Source of the DNA: Paramecium tetraurelia
Lineage: Eukaryota; Ciliophora; Oligohymenophorea; Peniculida; Parameciidae
NCBI RefSeq assembly: GCF_000165425.1
Contig: NW_001799033.1
Span: 66,611-130,610, forward strand
Length of the DNA stretch: 64,000 nt
Direction: 5' to 3'
A program made the translations under genes and the position numbers. Under the pieces are notes generated by a model. That model did no database searches. It was not told where the DNA came from and saw only the letters and a list, made by a program, of their open reading frames with translations. Below are positions 51,411 to 64,000 of this stretch, piece after piece. The first letter of the stretch is position 1, and each line of letters starts with the position of its first letter.

Positions 51411-52739
51411 TCAGTCACTGTCCCAGAATTTATCATCTCCTAAGCTTCCTACAAGTTGTAAGAAAGAGAATTTAGGCACTTCCATGCATGGTAAATCTTT
51501 TTCAATTCTGATTGATAATCCTTTAAGGTTTTCTTCATTATAAACTTTTAGAACTTTTCCGTCAGGAACTTTGAAACTTTTAACCTAGAATATATAAAAT
51601 CAATACTGGTTTATTCCATCCATCTTTGGGGAAAGACATCTTTCTATCGCATACAGTAAATGAGTCTCCTTAATAGTTGCATGATTCCCAAACTTAAGCA
51701 CAATCAGGATCAGTAACACCAGCATCTGGTTTAGGAACATAAACGAACCAATTGAGTTATCCTTCCAATAATTATGAATTCTACCCTAGGTTGATATATG
51801 GATCAAAAATTACATGTTCCAATTTCAACGGATAACTTATCTTTAACAAGTAAATAGTTCTTAGTTAAGAATCTGCAGAATGCACCATAATTGTAATATA
51901 AACCACTGATTCCGTACAATGTATATCTTGGTGTTTTAAGGAAAATTTCATCAGTGATCTTCTCTTCGTACTTCTTGACTCTTTCTGATTCAGGAGCAAC
52001 AGCGTTCAAAGGATCAGCAGCTCCACTTGTTTTATGTGTAATAGTTCCAACTAACAAGGTATCCTTTTCACCGATAATCATATTGACTCTAATGAATTCG
52101 ATTGTTCCCTTTTGTCCAACAGTCACTTTGAATTAAGCTGATGTTTTGGTGATGACTGCCATGTTAACTGCAATTTTAGGCCAAGCTTCAACCATTTTAA
52201 GTCCCAAGATAAAGATGGCAACATTTGGGGCACTTTTGAGTGACCAATTTTCTGGGAATGTCACTTCTAATGGTTATGCTCTGGTGGTTCCATCTTTATT
52301 TGATTTGACGACTGGTAAATTGTTTGTTTGCAATTCGTATGTATAGATATTGCTATCCAAAATAGCAGCCCATGAAACATCAAAACCGAAGATAGTAGCC
52401 GGACTTAATGCAACATATGTGATTGTGAAGCCAACGGTATTGACAGCACTCAATTGAATATCGAAACCTTATGGTAAAGTGTCTCCAAAATCATATTTGA
52501 TTGGTGCCAATATTACAGTGGGTGTTGATTTGAAGGGCTTGTTGAATTTGACTAATGTTTAGAAGCTTCTTCCCACTCTAATCAATGTATATTAGGATGA
52601 ATTACTCAACACTTTGCTGTAAAGGATGATAGGGAGTTTATGCCCAATGCAAACTTTAATCAATTCCTGAATCATATTGGGGTTTAATGAATCCCAATAC
52701 AGACAATGCGCAAACTGATAGGACTAAGTATTTCATCAT
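51411..52739 (-). CDS. secreted protein with H-type lectin domain
   Basis: About 425 residues. A signal peptide (MMKYLVLSVCALSVLG) is followed at residues 45-125 by an H-type lectin domain: VGRSFQTLVKFNKPFKSTPT ... GFTITYVAL ... VSWAAI, the pattern of discoidin-I C-terminal and snail agglutinin lectins that bind GalNAc. A second beta-rich region with the same flavour follows, and several Cys. Introns of 28 nt (GTAATT...GATTAG) and 22 nt are clear. One extra base in the TTT run 51823-51825 interrupts the frame after ...KDKLSVE. A secreted sugar-binding role is likely. Confidence 0.75.
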
Positions 52740-52814
52740 TAATCCGTTTTTAAATTTAATTATTTATAAACACCTTTAGAAATAATTTCATATATTCACA
52801 ATTTATTGATTTCT

Positions 52815-53821
52815 TCAAACTAACTTGTTTTTCTTCATCAACTCATCATAAAAATTGAGGCATTACTCAAATTATTCCTCTGTTATCATTTTATCTTTCC
52901 AATAATTGAAGAGTTGCTTCATTTTTATAGGCACTGATTGTCCATTCTCTCGAATATAATATTTGCCAGGAGTATTGGTTATTAATTGATTTGGGCCCTC
53001 TTTAATTGTAATCTCAAATCTAATTAATTTAGATAATACATTTTTAGATTGTTCACAACATAACATACATCCTAAAGTAGCACTCCGCACTCATGCAATT
53101 TAACATTCACCCATTAATCGCAACCAAACTCCTTGCATTTATGCATTATTGCAGTCATCACTTAATAGGCCTTCTTCTCTTAACAAAAACACCCACTAAC
53201 CACATAGTTATTAAGATCTTTGTCAAATGAAATTCCTATCAAAATCTTACCTTGTCTACGACTATTCAAAATGCTGCAGATGACCTTCATTATCTATTCT
53301 AAATAACTATTACTATAATTAAACCTGTGTTGTTGATCAAAAGATCCACCTTATATGACTTAAATTCTATTTTATCATTCTCCTTCAATGTACATTCCTT
53401 ACCCAATAAATAGATAGTTTTGTTCCCTTATACTACGTAGTCATTGACACCATCATATGGTACTTGAACTGAAAGTGTAGCACTAATATGAAATGTTGGT
53501 TTGATACAGCAATTCATCTCTTGATGTCTGAAATTTTAAAACAAAACTATATTTTTTTAAATGTCTTTTACCTTAGTCACTCAACAATTTCAATATGGTA
53601 TATTTTTAAGTTCTTCGAAACATACTAATTTTTACTGCTTTCCCAAAATACTCTTAACCCCATGATTTGTAATCGAATCTTTAATTTGTATGAACAAAAA
53701 CATATAAAATCTAGGAAGAATATTCATTGTTAATGGGTTGAGGTTTTTGGTTTTCTGGAGCAAGGATTAGATTGGAGAAGTATTATATCAAAAATTCAGA
53801 TTCATCAGAATCGGTACTCAT
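52815..53821 (-). CDS. unrecognised 296-residue protein, arrestin-like pattern
   Basis: Introns of 23, 53, 20 and 20 nt give a closed length. The protein is beta-rich: a first domain up to about residue 140 (ISATLSVQVPYDG, LLINNTG) and a second (GKILIGISFDKDL, WVNVKLHECGVLL). A two-sandwich plan like arrestins is possible, but no signature motif settles it. The 53-nt intron (GTGACT...TTTCAG) is longer than usual. Its start lies 18 bp from the CKK gene's start. Confidence 0.5.
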
Positions 53822-53839
53822 TAATTTTAATAATATAAA
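53822..53839. promoter_or_regulatory. 18-bp divergent start-to-start gap
   Basis: The third such gap in the window. Eighteen A/T bases separate the ATG of the 296-residue protein (minus) from that of the CKK-domain protein (plus). Confidence 0.5.
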
Positions 53840-55594
53840 ATGGATTTAACTCAATCACAAGAACAAGACAAAATAATACAATACTACCTCAACTAATAAA
53901 TTAAAAAGGTGGCTGATGAAAAGTCATAACTCACTCTTCAATAGGAATAAGAAAGAAATAAAATCAAATTATAAGTTTGGGAATTTCTAAATCAATAATA
54001 ATAATCCATTTAGTAGTCTCGTCTCAATGCAACACCCTTGAGTCTGATATCTAATAATTCTGCTTAATCTGATCGTTTTGATTTTCAAATGGATAGATCC
54101 AAAATGAAATAATAGAGTTAGAAATTTGAATAATCAATGCAATTCTAAAAAGACTACCCTAATCTCCAAATCAATTATCATTCCTTTGTCGATTCCAAAG
54201 ACTAACAATACAAACAACTGGATTTTCTTATAGCACAATATGAGCAGAAAACAAAGAATTTGCCTAAGAATTATTTCAAAAGACAACAACCTGAAAATAT
54301 TTCAAATTAACTGTAATAGGATTAAGATGACAATGATGAACAGTATAATCAAGATTTTGAATAGGATGAAGATATCTAAGAAGTAATTGAAGAAGAATTA
54401 CAAGAATCCTAAATGTAAATACAATAAAAGTCTTAAAAGTTTAATTAATAAGATCATGAGACTGCTTATAGCAATTTAATCAAATTAAGAATCGAGAGAT
54501 TGGATACTAGTGTTGCAAATGCAGACACTTCCAAACTGAATGATTTAAGTAAGATATCTGAATCATTAAGTGATTTGAAAGTAAGTCCAAATGAAGTTAA
54601 TAAAATACTTGAAATTAGTAGATAAGTAGATGCTTCCAAATAAACCACGTTCAAACTTGATCAAACTCTATTGCAAACCAAATCCAACGAAGAACCATTA
54701 ATAGAATCATCTCAACAATCAATGTCCTCAAAATTATTAGAGTTATCATAACAATAATCAAAATTCTATGAAAGATAGAAAATAGATTATCCTTAGATGC
54801 CTGTACTTGATTAAGAATTCTCTTATAAGTTAGAAGATCAATCTCAAGTTGCAAAGTCTTTCTATCCGAATAAAGTAGCGGATTAAGTTTCTAGATTTGA
54901 GTAATCAAAAATTTAGTAATCTAACTTTGAGCAATCGAAAATATAGAGTTAGAAGAGTTAATTTGATTAAATTTAAAAAAGCAATGCAACCAATGAAATT
55001 TAAACTAAGTCTAATCATTAAGAACAATCGTTTCGGGTTTAGGAACAGCAGAAGAATTTAGATTTTCAAGAAAAATCCAATATATCAAATTAGTTGTAAT
55101 CTAAATTTTAAGATTAATATCAAAACTTTTAGTAATCTCATCAACCTTCTAAATATAGCGAACCTACAAAAAGAATATAATCATCAGAATTTGAGAAATA
55201 ACAATATTATCAAAATTATACATGCGCTAATTCTAATGCAACTAGATAATATTAGCTTACATCGGCCGTAGAAAATGATCAAAAACCTGAAGAGTTTTAG
55301 CAAAGTTAATAAAATAATAATTACCTTGAGGATGAAGAAGAGGCATTTTCAGAAGAAGAGGATCATAATAATAAATTTTACTAATTTAGTATAAAATTTG
55401 AAGATTAAGATGATAAAGATAAATAAAAAAAATTTGAAGCATTGAAAAAAAAAAAATTATAGGAAATGGAAGAGCTAAAACAACTTAGATAATAAAGAAA
55501 TAAAGAATAACAACAACAAGTCGGTTAGAATAATAAAAGAGATCAATCTCCCCTTATGCCTAGTGCTTCATTGAAAAGGATATAATAATAATAG

Positions 55595-59315: not shown

Positions 59316-60116
59316 ATGGAATTCATTATTGTGTCATTATTGCTTATCTCAACATTTGGATGGGTTGTGAAGATTGAAAATCAATGCTCTTGCTCATAAT
59401 ATCGACTTTAAGCTGAATGTGTATCATCTCTAGGTTGTCGATGGAATATAAACTCTAATTTATGCCTTGATATTTAATGTAATTCAATAAAAACTCAAGC
59501 TGAATGCCTTTAGTACTCATAAAGTTGTTCATTTAATTACTCTACATTAACTTGCGCAACATTTACTTCATGTAAAAATTTAAGCGGAAATACTGTCTCA
59601 TAATGTTAAATTTAGAATCCTATGTGTTTATGGGTATCTGGGAATTCTTGCATAGATTACGATTGTCAAAATTTCAATTTGAATAGTTGCCCTTAATTTT
59701 GTATTAATACAGGAACTGCTTGTGAAAATTTTCCAACATGCGAAAAATTAAACTAAACCTATTGTTCAATTTATTCTGGAGTTTGCAATTGGAATTCAAA
59801 CAGATGTCAGAATTATGAATGTTCAAATTTTGTAACTATATCACAATGTCAATTTGTAATGGAATCAGAAAATACTATTAAACCATGTTATTGGAACTAA
59901 ACTTAGTGTATAAATGCTCCAGATGCAAGTGTTTTTAATGCTAATTAGTGCTTTATTTAAACTGCTGGTAAGTATCATTGGTCAAGTAACAACTCTACAG
60001 CTGGAACATGCGAATAATGTTATGGTTCTTCATAAATTTACGAGCCATTGACATAGTATCTTTCAAAAGGTTTGATTCTGAACATTATTGTGGTTGGTAT
60101 ATTCATGGTAATATGA
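59316..60116 (+). CDS. short cysteine-rich surface-antigen-like protein with GPI tail
   Basis: A 266-residue intronless protein. The signal peptide MEFIIVSLLLISTFGWV is followed by repeated modules of about 40 residues with periodic Cys and a CxWN or C.W motif (GCRWN, MCLWVSGNSC, VCNWNSNRC, PCYWNQTQC), as in Paramecium immobilisation antigens. The C-terminus is a short hydrophobic tail (LILNIIVVGIFMVI) directly before TGA, the usual GPI-anchor signal. Known surface antigens exceed 2,000 residues, so this is a mini-member. It would sit on the cell or ciliary surface. Confidence 0.75.
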
Positions 60117-60338: not shown

Positions 60339-60708
60339 ATGAAAAAGGCTCACAAATATAAAAAGAAGAATTTAGAAGTTTGCTGCCCTTATAATCCTAA
60401 TCACTTAATGCCCTTCAGTCAATTATGGTTTCACTTATCCTCTGGCTGCGAAGACAAATAAAAGTTTGGTAATAATCCTTCTTAATTTAGGTCATCTATA
60501 TTAGATATGTCCTTATAATTCATTGCATATCTTATAAAAGGAGCACTATGAAGATCACATTAAAAATTGCCAAAAGAAGATAGATGTAGATGATGATCTA
60601 TTAAAACAGATGAGTAATGTAGCTTAGGAGTAATTTGTTGAGGAAAATTAATTTCAGGATTAATTTATATCTAGAAATTGCAATAATAAATACAAGAAAT
60701 ATTATTGA
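60339..60708 (+). CDS. tandem CHHC zinc-finger protein, GTSF1 type
   Basis: A 115-residue protein with two CHHC fingers. Finger 1: C-x5-H-x9-H-x4-C in CPYNPNHLMPFSQLWFHLSS plus GC. Finger 2: C-x5-H-x9-H-x3-C in CPYNSLHILQKEHYEDHIKN plus C. One 22-nt intron, 60469-60490, separates them. The tail is acidic and Gln-rich. CHHC fingers occur in U11-48K, TRM13 and gametocyte-specific factor 1; a short protein with two tandem fingers and an acidic tail is the GTSF1 plan. GTSF1 proteins bind PIWI proteins, and a Paramecium GTSF1 is known from scnRNA selection. The next gene, 171 bp downstream, is NOWA-like, strengthening the assignment. Confidence 0.8.
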
Positions 60709-60879
60709 ATAAGATGCAATTGTTTTATATTTATCGTTAAACATTAAAAAAATGTATATTTAATCTGTCAAGAAATCTAAAACATGCCATTTTATATAAA
60801 AAACCCAATTATTCACTTCATAAAATTAACATAAATCAATCTAAAAATTGGTCCGCTCACTAATTAATTAAATATTCAT

Positions 60880-63800
60880 ATGAGTTGGAATACTAATAAC
60901 CTTGAAGAAGGTGAAGTTAAACCAGTAGATTCCACTCCAGTATGGGGCGGTGAATAAAACGCAGGTGGATAGTAAATAGATGAAGTGAAAAAAACTTAAG
61001 AGCCTTAATGGGGGCAGGATGAGAAAAAGGAGAACTAAGAAACTAATGCTTAAAATGGAACGGCAGCAGAATCAGGAGGTTGGGGAAATCAACCACAGCA
61101 GCAATCATCATCTTGGGGAGAAACTAAAACAGATAATAATGATAATGCATGGGGATCTGGAACTACAGGGTTTGGAAGCACATCAACAGGAGACAATGGA
61201 GGTTCATCTTGGGGAGGTGGTTCGACGTCTTGGGGAAATGGAGGAAGCTCAGATAATAATTTTTAATCAGATCGACCTAGAGGCAGAGGAAGAGGTGACA
61301 GAGGAGATCGAGGAGGTGGTTATAGAGGAAGAGGTGATAGAGGTGGAGAAGGTTTTAGAGGCAGAGGAGATGGATTTAGAGGAAGAGGAGATAGAGGAGA
61401 TCGAGGAGGATTTAGAGGAAGAGGTGATAGAGGAGGAGACAGAGGTGATCGAAGAGGAGGTTTTAGAGGTGGAAGAGATAATGGTGGAAGTTGGGGTGGC
61501 AACTCAAGTAATAACAACGGAGGAGGAAATAGTTGGGGAGGTAATGCAGAAGGTAGCTCTTGGGGAAATTCAGACAACAAAGATAATGCTGGAGGTGGTT
61601 GGGGTAGTACTTCAACAAATGAATAACCAGCTCAATCAGGTGGATGGGGTAGTACAACTACAGAATAGCCAGCACAATCTGGAGGATGGGGAAATTCTAC
61701 TGAATAACCAGTTCAATAAGCATCTGAAGGTTGGGGAAGTAAAACAGAATAACCTCCATAATAAGCAGAATCAAATTAAGGTGGATGGGGCACTACTACT
61801 GAATAATCAAACTAATAATCTGGTGGTGGTTGGGGATCGACAACTGAATAACCATAAAAATAATCCAACGGATGGGGAAATTCTACTTAAGAATAGCAAC
61901 CTTAATAATCTGGAGCTGGAGGTTGGGGATCTTCTAATACTGAACAACCTGCATAGTCATCAGGAGGTTGGGGAGCATCTACAACTGAATAACCTGCAAC
62001 TACTGGAGGTTGGGGTTCTACAACTGAATAGGCAACTACATCAGGAGGATGGGGATCTACTACTGATTAAGCAGCATCTTCAGGTGGAGGCTGGGGAGGT
62101 TCATCAGATCAATAAAATGGTAACTCTTGGGGCGGAGGAGGATCTGGAGATGGACAGAGAGGAAGAGGTCGAGGAAGAGGAGATCGTGGAGATAGAGGAG
62201 GTTTCAGAGGTCGAGGAGATGGTTTTAGAGGAAGAGGAGACAGAGGTGGAGAAGGTTTTAGAGGTAGAGGAGATGGATTTAGAGGAAGAGGAGACAGAGG
62301 AGATCGAGGAGGATTTAGAGGAAGAGGTGATAGAGGAGACAGAGGAGATAGAAGAGGTGGATTTAGAGGAGGAAGGGATAATGATAATTCTGGCAATGGT
62401 GGAAGCTGGGGTGGATCATCAAATGATTAAGGTGGTGGAGGATGGGGATCTTCAACAACTGATTAACCTGCATCTAATGGAGGTTGGGGATCTACTGCAA
62501 CTGAATAACCTTAATCAAATGGAGGTTGGGGATCTACTGCTACTGAACAACCAGCTTAAACTGGAGGTTGGGGATCTACAGCTACTGAAAAACCTGCATA
62601 GAATGGTGGTTGGGGATCTACAGCAACTGAATAACCATAATAGAGTGGAGGTTGGGGATCTACAACAACTGAATAACCATAAGCAAGTGGAGGTTGGGGA
62701 TCTACTGCTACTGAATAACCAGCTTAAAATGGAGGATGGGGATCTACTACTACTGAATAACCAGCATAAAATGGAGGATGGGGATCTACTGCTACTGAAT
62801 AACCAGCATAAACAGGTGGTTGGGGAAGCTCTGATGCTCCATAATAATCTAATGGTGGTTGGGGAAGTAGTAATAACGATTAACAATAATCTAATGGATG
62901 GGGCTCCAGTAATCAATAATCAAATGGAAATGGCGAAAGAGGAAGAGGTCGCGGCAGAGGAAGAGGTCGAGGTGGTGATAGAGGTGGTGATAGAGGCGGA
63001 GATAGAGGATTTGATCGAGGATTTGATAGAAATAATAATAACAATTACAACAACAATAACAACAACCACAACAACAACAATAACAACAATCATAATAACA
63101 ATAACAATACTGAAAATGGTGGAGGAGATTTACCAACTGCTAAAAGAATCAAACCTAACCCTGTAATAATTACAATATCAGATGATGAAAACGGAAAGGC
63201 ATCTCCTCATTTCAGTGAGGATGAATAAGAAAAAGTAAATATAATTAATGAGGCATTGAAATAAACTGTTGATGCAAAATAGGTTTCATTGTAACTACCA
63301 GTATTGGATACTAAATTTTCACCTCTTTTTAATCCTGAGCCTGATCCAGATAGTTTAAAAACTGATAATTTATGTCACCTTAAGGGAGGTCTTTATCCTC
63401 ATGAATAACATAAAAAGGTGAAGTTTGTATACACAGGAGGAATAAAGGTCGATTCAGATAGACAACCAGTTGTTAATTTAGTTACTTTTGATAATGATTT
63501 AGAATTTATTGAATCTTGTCCTAAAGTTGATTTAGCTGAAAAATAAGGAATAGAAACTGTGTTTTTGAGTCCATTGATAAATGAATATAGAATTCTGAAA
63601 AATGAATTGGTGTAATTAAGATAAGAAGAGAGAAGAACATAAATTAGGAGATAATATATGGGAATAGTGGAAGGAATTGATAAAGAAAATTAAGATTTAA
63701 TATGTTAAGTTGGATTGGCATTGTTAAAAGAATAGAAAGCAATAAGATTAAAATATGGATTTCTATTTGCTGAATTAACACTCTTTCACATTAAATAGAT

Positions 63801-63909
63801 ATTTGGAAATATGGATCAAGTAGAACATTAATCTTTGCAAGCAAGAGAAAAAGAATTGAGACCATCAAATGTAGTTTTTTCATAGTTTCCATTACTTAGA
63901 AATGGTTGA
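60880..63909 (+). CDS. RGG- and WG-repeat RNA-binding protein, NOWA type
   Basis: A 1,009-residue intronless protein. The N-terminal 720 residues are low-complexity: WG/GWG repeats (about three dozen, spaced near 20 residues in the second block) alternating with two near-duplicate Arg-Gly-rich blocks (about 61.28-61.48 and 62.15-62.39 kb), a third short one at 62.94-63.02 kb and an Asn-rich run. WG/GW repeats are Argonaute hooks; RGG boxes bind RNA. The C-terminal 290 residues (from about AKRIKPNPVIITISDD) are a folded, helical domain. This is the plan of Nowa1/Nowa2 of Paramecium tetraurelia, which bind nucleic acid and are needed for scnRNA-guided DNA elimination. GGN-rich repeats make assembly of this gene error-prone. 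Confidence 0.85.
61275..61485 (+). repeat. RGG block 1 of the NOWA-like gene
   Basis: Repeats of 18-33 nt built on AGA GGA AGA GGT GAT encode RGRGDR and FRGRGDR units. The same order of units recurs in block 2 with few changes, implying an internal duplication of the RGG plus WG module. Confidence 0.8.
62150..62385 (+). repeat. RGG block 2 of the NOWA-like gene
   Basis: A near-copy of block 1, including the GEGFRGRGDGFRGRGDR segment and the closing RRGGFRGGRDN. It is followed by the more regular set of WG repeats, in which GGWGSTATEQP-like units recur about every 60 nt. Confidence 0.8.
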
Positions 63910-64000
63910 ATGATGTGCCAAAATTGAAATGCAGAAGAAGAAAAGAGTTGTTATGATATATAAAATTAATATTATAATTACAAATTTGAATTAAATGGTG
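63910..64000. other. window end, no gene seen
   Basis: AT-rich sequence after the NOWA-like stop; nothing recognised. Confidence 0.5.

Follow-up and report, generated by a model that had tools for sequence, protein, structure and literature searches.

The closest described counterparts of the locus presented here are found in Paramecium tetraurelia and in the mouse. RNA- and Argonaute-binding regions have been described for the P. tetraurelia proteins Nowa1p and Nowa2p (PMC3091696, PMC4231744). The Gtsf1 protein of the same species (PTET.51.1.G0490019) is presented as an 18 kDa protein that binds Ptiwi09, with RNA interference (RNAi) segments reaching to base 479 of its gene, and is set apart from two earlier-reported CHHC proteins of Paramecium (PMC11724296). 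In mouse GTSF1 the residues W98, W107 and W112 carry the PIWI binding and R26, R29, K36 and K39 serve RNA binding (PMC9385479). The DNA analysed in this work, called the window, is a stretch of 64,000 nucleotides (C80:66611-130610) in which a short gene for a protein with tandem CHHC zinc fingers is followed by a large NOWA gene. We consider it likely that this is a NOWA1-type gene standing beside a short paralogue of Gtsf1, that Gtsf1 proper is encoded by another gene, on contig C157, and that the two window genes are neighbours through inherited gene order.

The short Gtsf1-like gene occupies 60339..60708 on the + strand. It was translated with the ciliate code, in which TAA and TAG are read as glutamine. 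Removal of a predicted 22-nt GTA...TAG intron (60469..60490, + strand) puts both fingers in one frame, and the resulting gene model spans 370 bp, stops at a TGA (60706-60708) and would encode a protein of 115 aa and 14.0 kDa. Finger 1 (60384..60449, + strand) follows the spacing C16-x5-H-x9-H-x4-C37 and finger 2 (60508..60570, + strand) the spacing C50-x5-H-x9-H-x3-C70; the x4 rather than x3 before the last cysteine of finger 1 is likewise present in the models from contigs C69, C218, C157 and C58. Across the six frames of the window the spacing of a single finger is matched two times, both times by a finger of this gene, compared with a mean of 0.3 (range 0-2) in 20 block-shuffled windows, and is thus more than chance. 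Moreover, the Pfam profile zf-U11-48K matches the protein in two stretches (E 4e-14). A hidden, longer C-terminus was rejected since the TGA stands at the same place in the window copy and in a second copy on contig C176, and inspection by eye, with no script run, revealed no GTA...TAG intron of the usual size across the stop. The first-pass annotation, made from the letters of the window, had described a tandem CHHC gene and an RGG/WG gene adjacent on the same strand and 171 bp apart, and its coordinates, strand and spacing are all correct.

It had also called the small protein GTSF1-like and had named a best match to U11-48K or TRM13 as a finding that would refute its reading. When this was checked neither was best. 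In a search of solved structures the protein matched mouse GTSF1 (PDB 6x46) most closely, over 81 residues and both fingers (E 3.6e-9), followed by another GTSF1 chain (0.0031) and by the far weaker U11-48K (0.028). An identity as U11-48K was rejected because this match ranks behind two GTSF1 chains and aligns finger 1 alone, and an identity as TRM13 because no TRM13 domain is among the four Pfam matches up to E 10; the TRM13-like gene of the genome is a separate locus (C176:385862), where a methyltransferase domain is accompanied by one CHHC match. The further proposal, that the protein is the partner of the PIWI protein, is not supported. No tryptophan is present in the 45-residue tail after the fingers, and phmmer places P, Q, S and E at the positions of mouse R26, R29, K36 and K39, so that none of the four is basic, with the caveat that Lys40 of the window protein could pair with K39 given a gap at the extra finger-1 residue. 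In addition, another gene of the genome fits Gtsf1 better in size and tail.

The large gene (60880..63956, + strand) has the exons 60880-63870 and 63900-63956 and would encode 1015 aa. Its start ATG at 60880 is the 33rd codon of an open frame beginning at 60784. The first-pass annotation had the start and frame right, but its end at 63909, where the unspliced open reading frame stops, is probably wrong: splicing out a probable last intron of 29 nt, again GTA...TAG (63871..63899, + strand), leads into KWLNDVPKLKCRRRKELL and a stop at 63956, and restores C-terminal residues that the second NOWA copy has in open frame. NOWA therefore probably ends at 63956, judging from this shared C-terminus. 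The second copy has TTA where this donor has GTA, and the matching 27 nt are read through in frame there, as if the intron had become exon.

The NOWA open frame contains 36 WG and 25 GW motifs (61 together, against a mean of 15.7 and a maximum of 28 in 1000 shuffles) and 33 RG[GR] motifs with overlaps counted (mean 4.2, maximum 12 in 1000 shuffles). These counts, the existence of two copies and the SUMO-like neighbours of both bear out the earlier NOWA-like label, and by these sequence characters the gene is NOWA. The protein had no Pfam match, and scans of viral and prokaryote contigs, made with the C-terminal 251 aa, returned no relatives of that part. The non-repetitive C-terminal region (63118..63870, + strand) is constrained between the copies, with a ratio of nonsynonymous to synonymous substitution (dN/dS) of 0.12 counted over 63118-63906.

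When the genome was searched for Rad60-SLD (SUMO-type) domains, the two best of 42 matches lay near the NOWA copies. The SUMO-like genes are at C80:141798-141998, outside the window and about 11 kb from NOWA, and at C176:347536-347796, 3.1 kb from the second copy, and both are convergent with NOWA. In P. tetraurelia the numbers given are 6994 for NOWA1 (GSPATT00006994001) and 7001 for SUMOI, and 16668 for NOWA2 (GSPATT00016668001) and 16666 for SUMOII (PMC3091696 Table 3). Because of the distances of about 11 kb and 3.1 kb, the window gene is most likely of the NOWA1 type and the C176 gene of the NOWA2 type.

Two NOWA loci were found in the genome searched (231 contigs, 69.07 Mb), the one in the window and one at C176:350882-354211 on the minus strand. 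By its size, its tiny introns, its NOWA genes and its duplicated blocks, this genome looks like a macronuclear genome of the Paramecium aurelia complex. The copies are 86.3% identical over 970 aligned residues, with dS 0.59, dN 0.08 and dN/dS 0.14, and dS amounts to 0.63 in the C-terminal part and 0.75 in the first 60 codons. A blastn comparison of a 22.4-kb stretch of C176 with C80 gave eight pieces, seven of them in one inverted order, with gaps, running across the SUMO-like gene, NOWA, the CHHC gene and the genes beyond; the eighth is a repeat inside NOWA. A protein search located a decayed CHHC copy next to the C176 NOWA, which is itself intact. Compared with the window copy, the decayed copy shows single-base indels at four places, two of them in exon 1, one in exon 2 and one within the intron, its intron acceptor has changed from TAG to GAG, and finger-2 cysteines have been replaced by Trp and Tyr. 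Over 113 codons, with broken codons dropped, the CHHC pair gives dS 0.62, dN 0.18 and dN/dS 0.29; the finger domain gives dN/dS 0.15 at dS 1.08 (57 codons, 30 synonymous sites). As the dS of the CHHC pair is close to that of NOWA (0.59-0.75), both pairs come from the same event, and we infer that the two blocks are copies left by a whole-genome duplication, the recent one. Duplicates in Paramecium are described as having high synteny and short intergenic regions (PMC11334263). Since CHHC and NOWA are adjacent in both blocks, their adjacency is older than the duplication. Given the decay on C176, the pair has not been kept as a unit, and the second NOWA persists without a working CHHC neighbour.

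This decay bears on the state of the window gene as well. That gene might be a truncated remnant becoming a pseudogene, the C176 copy having lost its function first, and the 115 aa of its product compared with 193 in the nearest paralogue (C69), the absent Trp tail and basic residues, and a dN/dS of the pair about twice that of NOWA would agree with this. We find it unlikely, however, because the window copy has lost none of its eight zinc ligands and retains a clean intron and an unbroken frame while its sister decayed, because the stop position common to both copies makes the short form older than the decay, and because the dN/dS of the finger domain is low, though measured on few synonymous sites at a high dS. 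The values of 0.29 for the whole and 0.15 for the fingers suggest that the C176 copy was probably lost late and that the window copy was under constraint.

The other CHHC genes of the genome offer the second comparison. The zf-U11-48K profile gave 14 matches, nine of them over the cut-off. Two of 14 named control genomes, both prokaryotes, matched as well, one of them above the cut-off, so a lone weak finger match may arise by chance. The nine belong to tandem-CHHC genes on C80 (the window gene), C69, C218 and C157, to a gene on C58 matched in its first finger, and to the TRM13-like gene; a match on C160 (16.7 bits, below the cut-off) lacks the last cysteine. The models have 193 aa (C69), 202 aa (C218) and 150 aa (C157; 18.2 kDa, gene of 474 bp), and are 48%, 35% and 34% identical, respectively, to the window protein. 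Their tails hold one, two and three tryptophans in the same order, compared with none in the window protein and none in the decayed C58 model, and the four basic positions are K or R in three cases in C69 and in two in C157 (C218 falling outside the comparison). The C157 tail carries the motif DDIWDQLW, which phmmer pairs with mouse W107/W112, although the local score is -1.1 bits. Because of its 18.2 kDa, its 474-bp gene and this tail, the C157 gene is preferred over the window gene (14.0 kDa, 370 bp) and is most likely Gtsf1 proper as far as these features tell, and the window gene is GTSF1-like but probably not Gtsf1 itself. An apparent duplicate of the C157 candidate is present at C58:463623-464056, with 34% identity to it in the first 61 residues. 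The first finger alone fits the CHHC pattern there, so that this CHHC gene may also be down to one intact copy.

The published gene numbers point the same way. PGM has the old number 16627 and the new number G0490162, GTSF1 is G0490019, and EMA1a/PTMB.220 has the old number 299 and the new number G0010313. The old and new numbering seem to run along the scaffolds in similar steps, as seen for EMA1a/PTMB.220 and extended here to the other genes. GTSF1 is then 143 gene numbers from PGM and NOWA2 41, with NOWA1 in a distant number range, so that by its number, rather than by a map, GTSF1 would not be beside NOWA2 in P. tetraurelia. It is decidedly unlikely that the true Gtsf1 orthologue is the CHHC gene of the window, forming with NOWA1 a co-regulated pair of early meiosis. 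Its tandem CHHC fingers and a match to mouse GTSF1 that covers both fingers and is stronger than that of C157 are in favour of such a pair, as are the early-peak expression of NOWA1 and NOWA2 in autogamy (PMC5485702) and the PTIWI09/EZL1 expression profile described for GTSF1 (PMC11724296). But the window product and gene are too small for the 18 kDa and the base 479 of the described Gtsf1, there is no tail Trp, the gene numbers set GTSF1 apart from both NOWA genes, and C157 is the better candidate in size and tail.

Several points weigh against our preferred reading, in which the C157 gene is Gtsf1 and the window gene a paralogue; this assignment is drawn from size, tail motif and gene numbers. 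In their fingers the window protein (3.6e-9) and C69 (5e-9) resemble mouse GTSF1 more closely than C157 does (0.0032), and even the best GTSF1 match of C157 (0.0008) is weaker than that of the window protein. The PIWI contacts of ciliates may not be those of the mouse. The gene names of GTSF1 and PGM place both on scaffold 49 of P. tetraurelia, whereas none of eight piggyBac-transposase matches falls on C157 or any further contig bearing a CHHC gene over the cut-off, so PGM linkage could not confirm C157 as Gtsf1. Moreover the introns are predictions, and genes split by introns may escape a genome search.

The 171-bp spacer (60709..60879, + strand) presumably contains the 3' end of the CHHC gene together with the promoter of NOWA. 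It is 90.6% identical to the second copy, with 94.1% in the last half and 87.1% in the first half, the last half being well above the synonymous-site identity of NOWA (about 59%; 285.2 differences at 696.2 sites). This conservation agrees with a NOWA promoter that is retained where the CHHC gene beside it is lost. Gene conversion is also possible: it is described as widespread (PMC11334263), and when the aligned blocks are read in 85-column steps, 369 of the 2904 steps are at least 93% identical, some of them 100%. Elsewhere in the window, at 51833-53885, 85-base stretches are 99-100% identical to C176 where the median between the blocks is 85%, which suggests local gene conversion or strong constraint. 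Given median untranslated regions (UTRs) of 19 nt at the 5' end and 44 nt at the 3' end (PMC5485702) and the short intergenic regions, 171 bp leaves room for a promoter and both UTRs, so that nothing unusual has to be invoked for a gap of this size.

That the adjacency is conserved was rejected as a weak proof that the two genes share their regulation, since the surrounding block is colinear. Early-peak genes number 1730 of 35,481 (about 5%, summed over the cluster table of PMC5485702), so that a neighbour of this class would be unusual, though not rare. A list of early DNA-elimination genes (PMC3091696 Table 3) includes SUMO as well as NOWA, and the SUMO-NOWA linkage may suit the idea of neighbours sharing a pathway, which the first-pass annotation had put forward for CHHC and NOWA, better than that pair does. 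No published report of a CHHC-NOWA pair was found in a literature search conducted mostly at the level of titles.

On the reading of an inherited neighbourhood, NOWA would act as an RNA- and Argonaute-binding protein in the scanning by scan RNAs (scnRNAs), as published, from its own promoter in the spacer. The CHHC protein may be a zinc-binding module for nucleic-acid or protein interaction, derived from a Gtsf1-like ancestor and closest to the C69 gene, which would have lost PIWI binding through a Trp tail and may have a minor or redundant role. The adjacency would then reflect inherited gene order and not an operon-like unit. Of the "GTSF1 beside NOWA" of the earlier annotation the adjacency and the families stand, and GTSF1 itself becomes a short Gtsf1-like paralogue beside NOWA1. 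It is highly improbable that Gtsf1 has been divided, with a tail-less CHHC protein kept beside NOWA1, whose GW repeats supply the Argonaute hook; if so, both products would jointly do the work of Gtsf1, and scnRNA selection would have a second branch that depends on NOWA and is peculiar to the NOWA1 copy.

The locus thus yields a CHHC-family member, apparently uncharacterised, beside a genome-scanning gene and probably distinct from the studied Gtsf1. Should the protein have a part in scanning, it would act there as a Gtsf1 relative that lacks the tail normally used for PIWI binding. Furthermore, as a living CHHC neighbour is present at one NOWA copy and missing at the other, the two copies constitute a natural test of the need of NOWA for CHHC. 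The gene upstream of the CHHC gene (59316-60116) encodes a Cys-rich protein that matches PF01508, the Paramecium surface antigen domain (E 1.3e-6); the block comparison showed no equivalent of it in the corresponding position on C176.

Compared with known systems, the window protein has the two CHHC fingers of mouse GTSF1 but neither tail tryptophans like W98, W107 and W112 nor aligned counterparts of R26, R29, K36 and K39. Andreeva and Tidow reportedly presented two Paramecium CHHC proteins as Gtsf1 homologues in 2008; they have CHHC fingers in common with the window gene, to which one of the two may be orthologous. The tandem N-terminal CHHC fingers are also those of P. tetraurelia Gtsf1, whereas the size (18 kDa there, 14.0 kDa here), the missing Trp tail and, by gene numbers, the place in the genome differ. 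The large gene, compared by description, resembles NOWA1 and NOWA2 of P. tetraurelia in the regions described there as RNA- and Argonaute-binding, in having two copies and in the SUMO gene that, by gene numbers, is near both, and no difference was seen at this level.

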